A DNA stretch of 24,124 nucleotides from the IMG/VR virus record IMGVR_UViG_3300045733_000612, positions 1 to 24,124 of that record; one strand, given 5' to 3'. Under the pieces are notes generated by a model. The model made no database searches, was not told the origin of the DNA, and worked only from the letters and a program-made list of their open reading frames with translations. The number at the start of each line of letters is the position of its first letter. Positions within the stretch are counted from its first letter, which is position 1. Of this stretch, positions 2,225 through 2,485 are shown piece after piece. Source of the stretch: a virus. A program made the translations under genes and the position numbers.

Positions 2225-2485
2225 ATGATCACGACACTGATATACGTCGCTTGGAGCCGGAGCCGGAGCCGGAGCCGGAGCCGGAGCGGGAGCCGGAGCG
2301 GGAGCCGGAGCGGGAGCAGTAGCTGGAGCTGGGGCAGTAGCCGGAGCTGGAGCAGTAGCCGGAGCGGGAGCCGGAGCAGTAGCTGGAGCTGGAGCAGTAG
2401 CGGGAGCTGGAGCAATAGCCGGAGCGGGAGCCGGAGCAGTAGCTGGAGCGGGAGCCGGAGCCGGAGCCGGAGCGGGAGCCGGTGA
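2225..2485 (+). CDS. Possible Ser/Arg-dipeptide repeat microprotein
   Basis: ATG 2225 follows a GGGGA Shine-Dalgarno-like stretch (2212-2216) at good spacing and opens an 86-codon frame. The unique head is [10 protein letters not shown]; the rest is 38 dipeptides in which the first residue is nearly always Ser and the second is Arg, Gly, Trp, Ser or Asn. The frame ends in TGA 2483-2485, overlapping the GTG start of the nuclease gene (GTGA), as is typical of coupled phage genes. Against a real protein, the variable base of the DNA repeat is a non-synonymous first codon position here, and other frames are also open. If translated, it would be a basic disordered peptide, perhaps nucleic-acid binding, or simply a leader that couples translation to the nuclease. 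No homologue is recognised. Confidence 0.4.
2253..2482 (+). repeat. GGAGCC-type hexanucleotide tandem repeat
   Basis: About 38 tandem copies of a 6-bp unit, GGAGCN, with the last base being C, G, A or T and occasional GTAGCN or GGGGCN variants. The first copies are nearly pure GGAGCC and the middle is diversified. A longer higher-order block ([10 protein letters not shown] in one frame) occurs at least twice. Each unit contains a GGAG Shine-Dalgarno core, and the copies at 2469-2472 and 2475-2478 precede the GTG at 2482. A unit of six bases means slippage changes length without shifting frame. Confidence 0.95.

Follow-up and report, generated by a model that had tools for sequence, protein, structure and literature searches.

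A putative two-gene phage module in which a dipeptide-repeat protein follows a predicted Sm-like barrel

The eukaryotic Sm proteins SmD1, SmD3 and SmB, together with Lsm4, bear Arg-Gly tails, and arginine-rich dipeptide repeats bind RNA or ribosomes. Proteins that consist almost purely of a dipeptide repeat are, to our knowledge, known chiefly from human repeat-expansion disease. At the level of DNA, bacterial simple-sequence contingency loci carry tandem repeats whose number is altered by slippage. In Hfq, the acidic tip of the tail binds the protein's own basic Sm core (PMC5606850).

The locus described here lies in a stretch of 24,124 nucleotides from the viral record IMGVR_UViG_3300045733_000612 (the window), where a hexanucleotide tract encodes a putative protein with serine at every second residue (Ser-X), downstream of a gene, p86, for a predicted Sm-like barrel. 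The eukaryotic Sm and Lsm4 proteins are closest to this pair, resembling it in arginine-rich low-complexity sequence and in an Sm fold, which for p86 is a prediction, whereas their tails are fused to the core, are Arg-Gly rather than Ser-Arg/Gly/Trp, and belong to the context of splicing and mRNA decay. Hfq, with an Sm core and a low-complexity tail of opposite charge, is closest to a second phage arrangement considered below, that of DUF6948 and a Gly-X repeat, although in Hfq (PMC5606850) a single polypeptide comprises the core and its disordered, acidic C-terminal tail, and that tail does not repeat a dipeptide perfectly.

The Ser-X gene extends from ATG2225 to TGA2485 on the forward strand (2225-2485), and its 86-amino acid product, with a net charge of +16, begins with a short leader followed by Ser-(Arg/Gly/Trp/Ser) dipeptides. 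The body of the gene is a tract called by TRF at 2253-2482 and made up, by unit count, of 38 hexamers (2253-2480, forward strand), 30 of which are exact GGAGCN units (GGAGCC 13, GGAGCG 7, GGAGCA 6, GGAGCT 4) and eight of which are variants (GTAGCN 6, GGGGCA 1, ATAGCC 1). This is the sole GGAGCN array in the record, with 15 forward matches, none in reverse, and none with a reversed-pattern control. A Shine-Dalgarno-like GGGGA (2213-2217, forward strand) is positioned 7 nucleotides upstream of ATG2225, and the Ser-X termination codon (TGA, 2483-2485) overlaps the GTG2482 initiation codon of the downstream nuclease gene, creating the arrangement GTGA (2482-2485, forward strand). The tract, the two overlapping frames and the Shine-Dalgarno-like site are thus as the preliminary description had them, whereas GGAG, which it ascribed to every unit, is present in 30 of the 38 hexamers and missing from the eight variants. 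Since the N position is synonymous in both, a Gly-Ala frame on the forward strand and an Ala-Pro frame on the reverse strand were also considered as the real reading of the tract; both were rejected, as no start codon for either lies close to the tract and both dipeptides are lost in relatives that use TCG, TCA or TCT serine codons. Between p86 and the Ser-X frame, RNA folding identifies a perfect 16-bp inverted repeat (2172-2209, forward strand), the hairpin having a U-rich 3' arm suggestive of a terminator or of an RNA-processing signal; a scan for consensus terminators did not pick it up, because the T run sits inside the stem.

The upstream gene, p86 (1909-2169, forward strand), encodes 86 amino acids, occurs as a single copy in the window record (E 9.6e-32), and is the candidate first gene of the module. 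When 80 viral contigs were selected by homology to p86 alone, blind to any repeat, a Ser-X ORF (X = Arg, Gly, Trp) was found directly downstream of p86 in 74 by an automatic rule and in 76 by reading, where the density of tracts elsewhere in the same loci predicts 0.03 by chance. The exceptions are L161, L168 and L220, which have no Ser-X ORF, and L162, which ends too early. The Ser-X start lies at an offset of -4, creating an ATGA overlap, in 38 of the 63 ORFs that were measured, and at -1 in a further 7; such short overlaps of stop and start are the mark of translational coupling. In the window itself the two genes do not overlap, the hairpin standing between them, and they are likewise separated by a hairpin in the close relative L021. 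The complete myovirus MW202573, the only phage record with p86, has the pair, as do 9 of 11 contigs from metagenome-assembled genomes; p86 was not found in plasmids, and none of 103 p86 matches is a p86-Ser-X fusion. Linkage across such very different phages points to a widespread two-gene phage module, with a repeat protein as second gene behind an Sm-like-predicted partner, rather than to a nuclease switch.

The preliminary description had seen the tract as a possible means of setting how well the downstream nuclease is translated. PHROGs classes the product of 2482-2856 (forward strand) as an endonuclease (phrog_93, E 1.3e-11), and it carries PD-(D/E)XK-like motifs (SSDLIG...AIEVK), but it has no Pfam match at E <= 0.1, to VRR_NUC or otherwise. 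A translational regulator, in which the supply of ribosomes to GTG2482 depends on the number of repeats or on the Ser-X leader, would fit the GTGA overlap and the GGAG units upstream of the start, and in-frame changes in tract length are real among relatives of the module. However, the approximately 2.5 kb flanking each of the 80 p86 loci contain no nuclease homologue, the gene downstream of Ser-X varies between these loci, and the nearest tract-bearing relatives have the nuclease either on the opposite strand, approximately 1.5 kb from the tract (L013), or not adjoining the tract at all (L021). Conversely, the nuclease homologues of L009 and L010 begin directly after other genes, with no tract. 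In addition, the strong Shine-Dalgarno core AGGAG does not occur in the window tract, because the N preceding GG is never A (C 15, G 8, T 7, A 0). Avoidance of AGGAG was considered as a general rule and rejected: it holds for the window, L021 and L013 (0 of ~190 units), but in other AGC-type loci 82 of 298 units have AGG. Regulation of the nuclease as the purpose of the tract is accordingly improbable. The nuclease is a neighbour outside the conserved module; since the two codons overlap, its translation is probably coupled to that of Ser-X in the window phage specifically, as a by-product of the way the genes are ordered there, and control of the nuclease would be at most a local consequence of the GTGA overlap. 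By the comparison of loci, the conserved neighbour of Ser-X is instead the upstream, predicted Sm-like gene.

Relatives of the window show how variable the tract can be. Contigs related through the DNA polymerase (50-56% identity) have hexanucleotide tracts at similar places, some with a very different hexamer; the helicase found no relatives among viral contigs, and the whole window gave no megablast match to phages. In L021, a p86 homologue and a hairpin are followed by four tandem Ser-X ORFs, and in L013 several consecutive Ser-X ORFs are joined stop-to-start by TAATG. The leaders of L013 are homologous (MNTSVLYGAW and MNTSILYGAW), the latter being common to L021 and L013, and the leader in the window is of the L021 type. 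In two other contigs, L011 and L015, Gly-X ORFs built of GGCNAC hexamers are found instead of Ser-X, behind a DUF6948 gene and a terminator-like hairpin.

The Gly-X ORFs appear to belong to a sister module. A scan of viral contigs for (GGCNRC)n returned 61 Gly-X ORFs, spread over 52 of 80 loci, many of them directly behind genes for DUF6948, a family identified by Pfam (PF22253). In an unbiased sample of 80 loci picked by DUF6948 homology only, a Gly-X ORF (X = Tyr, Asp, Ser, Asn) follows DUF6948 in 77 (automatic) or 78, with 0.01 expected. Among phage records with DUF6948, a Gly-X stretch adjoins the gene in six of seven, for instance in Pectobacterium phage Ymer, Vibrio phage IKEMa6-1 and Chlorobiaceae phage CV-1-33, the stretch being short in two faecal clones; in Iodobacter phage PhiPLPE, DUF6948 is without Gly-X. 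In L042 the two are fused, and phrog_18306 covers both the DUF6948 and the Gly-X parts. Several variations on this arrangement were observed. Tandem Gly-X ORFs with near-identical leaders, some with 4-nucleotide overlaps, are found in L027 (2349-3445, reverse strand) and L044 (9753-10252), which parallels the tandem arrangement of Ser-X ORFs in L021. In L044, L047, L051, L070 and L080, the gene upstream of the Gly-X ORF belongs to a third barrel-like family (VVVVDRGWIFAGDV...), and the member that was scanned (L047) has no DUF6948 match. In L034, L046, L058, L065, L073 and L096, Gly-X repeats follow, within one protein, an N-terminal domain that carries a GAC.DGV motif, and in the faecal phage clones L151 and L152 a short Gly-X stretch behind DUF6948 is joined in one protein to a second conserved domain (IKxFNxxxVYxIDxI...).

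What is retained in the Ser-X modules is the pattern of the protein rather than the repeat in the DNA. Across 60 distinct loci the main serine codon is TCG in 40, AGC in 11, TCA in 6, TCT in 2 and AGT in 1, and no single synonymous step connects the TCN and AGY codons. Because the main serine codons differ between loci, conservation attaches to the dipeptide pattern and not to the hexamer; for the same reason the dipeptides of the other two frames vary among loci, and Ser-X alone is constant. The X residues are mostly Arg (573), Gly (489) and Trp (457) of ~1600, and the leader follows a conserved MNxAxLRxGFD. The Ser-X frame is thus likely to be translated as a genuine gene, as had been suggested, going by its conservation across phages despite different serine codons.

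Within a locus, variation is concentrated at the first base of the X codon, with a mean entropy of 1.51 bits as opposed to 0.01-0.23 at the other five sites, and the first base of X is more variable than the third in all 60 loci. The synonymous sites of Ser, Arg and Gly codons are near-invariant within a Ser-X locus, which is odd for ordinary codon drift. Such near-invariance is not predicted by plain protein-level selection alone, and counts against the explanation favoured below. In our reading, slippage homogenises neutral sites while selection preserves a variety of X residues; the variable base may also be subject to targeted mutation. Identical adjacent units are depleted, with 411 observed and 473 expected from composition.

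The number of repeats also changes. Ser-X tracts range from 11 to 45 units across the sampled loci, and the phage contigs L264 and L265, with flanks more than 99% identical, have Gly-X proteins of 39 and 75 amino acids, a difference of 36 codons in frame. This provides the whole-hexamer change between near-identical phages that was expected of such a tract, with the caveat that the lengths come from tracts assembled from short reads, in which such repeats can collapse. A second pair, L163 and L164, suggests the same length change for Ser-X, L163 stopping at the end of its contig. Slippage-driven change in repeat number is shared with bacterial contingency loci; in the phage tracts, by contrast, the periodicity of the protein is conserved and hexamers preserve the frame, precluding on/off switching. 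A phase-variable repeat has a unit that is not a multiple of three, whereas the unit here is 6 bp.

These patterns bear on two readings in which the protein is incidental. If the nucleic acid itself mattered, either as a hypermutable contingency repeat or as a structured RNA, it would be understandable that a single base per hexamer varies within a locus and that the RNA fold in the window has a z of -3.1. Such a reading is hard to reconcile with hexamers that vary between loci over five main serine codons, with Ser-X the only common element, with six-base steps that are unable to turn off the frame, and with Gly-X modules built on an unrelated hexamer, and it is considered very improbable. 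A neutral microsatellite expansion without function would account for slippage-like changes in length by whole units, but is already contradicted by conservation: by linkage in 74-78 of 80 loci in unrelated contigs, by the conserved leader and mixed X composition, and by the deficit of identical neighbouring units. The probability left to neutral expansion is negligible.

Structure prediction links the upstream genes of the two modules. AlphaFold2 models p86 (from 70 homologues) and DUF6948 as small beta-barrels, with pLDDT of 94.2 and 92.5, respectively. In Foldseek searches of the PDB, the top matches of p86 are nearly all Sm/LSm proteins (best E 3.9e-3, TM ~0.5-0.77), as are those of DUF6948, and both barrels match LSM14, Lsm1-7, archaeal SmAP and spliceosomal Sm proteins; the best E values for the two are near 2e-3 to 4e-3 and TM mostly 0.45-0.77, which is modest, and other small-barrel superfamilies look alike. 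At the level of sequence, p86 has no Pfam match to LSM or any family (E <= 0.1 for the window protein, E <= 0.5 for that of L021), no sequence relatives were found in the PDB, and sequence profiles give no Sm link for p86 or DUF6948. Taking the Sm fold as a five-stranded, strongly bent small barrel, the models make p86 and DUF6948 probable Sm-like barrels, on good evidence that falls short of proving family membership. The two resemble each other in being small barrels of similar length, predicted to be Sm-like, upstream of a dipeptide-repeat ORF, and DUF6948 proteins appear among the structural matches of p86. However, p86 does not match the DUF6948 profile, for which membership is set at a Pfam score >27 bits, and profile-profile comparison finds a weak similarity (probability 21, E 1e-3 over 35 columns).

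The partners also differ in charge. The mean net charge is -2.2 for p86 and +9.6 for Ser-X (positive in 60 of 60), and +2.2 for DUF6948 and -8.1 for Gly-X (negative in 55 of 57), such that an acidic barrel is paired with a basic repeat in one class and a basic barrel with an acidic repeat in the other. Within a class, the charges of the partners do not covary, and the argument from opposite charge consequently rests on the two classes.

Taken as a whole, the explanation that is favoured, with somewhat better than even confidence, is that the Ser-X tract supplies the main coding part of a gene for a small protein of repeated dipeptides, which stands second in a phage module of two genes, and that this polypeptide serves the Sm-like protein as a low-complexity tail, translated separately from it and able to detach. 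The tail would be held to the barrel by opposite charge, and perhaps also by the leader, and would determine the barrel's choice of nucleic acid, RNA being the likeliest, or would gather the barrel into assemblies, as modelled on the disordered tails of Hfq and of eukaryotic Sm proteins. A broader and more tentative proposal, held to be plausible but rather less probable, is that phages widely encode a two-component Sm-like RNP system in which the tail is a separate gene tuned by slippage, with basic Ser-Arg/Gly/Trp serving one family of barrels and acidic Gly-Tyr/Asp/Ser a second. Such tails may drive assembly or autoregulation of an Sm ring on phage or host RNA, with the number of repeats as an evolutionary dial.

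The main rival to a separate tail is a toxin/antidote pair, in which the repeat protein acts on its own against the bacterial host, as an effector or toxin that might for instance bind RNA or ribosomes in the manner of arginine-rich dipeptide repeats, with the Sm-like barrel as its chaperone or antidote. The tight overlap of the two genes, the opposite charges, the small size and the tandem duplicates do resemble toxin-antitoxin layouts. However, Gly-X carries the opposite charge to Ser-X, so that a single toxic chemistry fails to fit both, and fusions of DUF6948 to Gly-X exist. In addition, PADLOC profiles gave no match for p86, Ser-X or DUF6948, and for the nuclease only a match to BrxA at E 0.012. 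A toxin is thus considered unlikely, though less so than a regulator of the nuclease.

In the open PMC literature, nothing was found on DUF6948 and nothing relevant on the repeat strings or related topics, and the two-gene Ser-X module has apparently not been described in open papers so far. In these phages, dipeptide-repeat proteins appear to be conserved gene products, found behind two Sm-like-predicted families in most sampled carriers. A module that keeps its dipeptide rule while the DNA changes, and whose length shifts in whole units, represents a natural experiment on low-complexity sequence, with a defined partner and with isolated phages for testing. The pairing with Gly-X also offers a starting point for assigning a function to the DUF6948 family.

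Among the other genes in the window, one in the early region of the phage encodes a family 2 glycosyltransferase (7087-8049, forward strand; Pfam PF00535, E 9.3e-15). Two small HTH-like proteins (1602-1856 and 8046-8312, both forward strand) have, by eye, similar C-termini (RYYEARGVVF and RYFEEQGVIF) and are possibly paralogous regulators. On the reverse strand, the ORFs at 11144-11920 and 21527-22363 appear, on inspection, glycine-rich in the manner typical of phage tail or adhesin proteins, and those at 11884-12861 and 18963-19469 share very similar ends (NGGAFNIT.WPG...SGSGKKD), probably as paralogous tail-associated domains.
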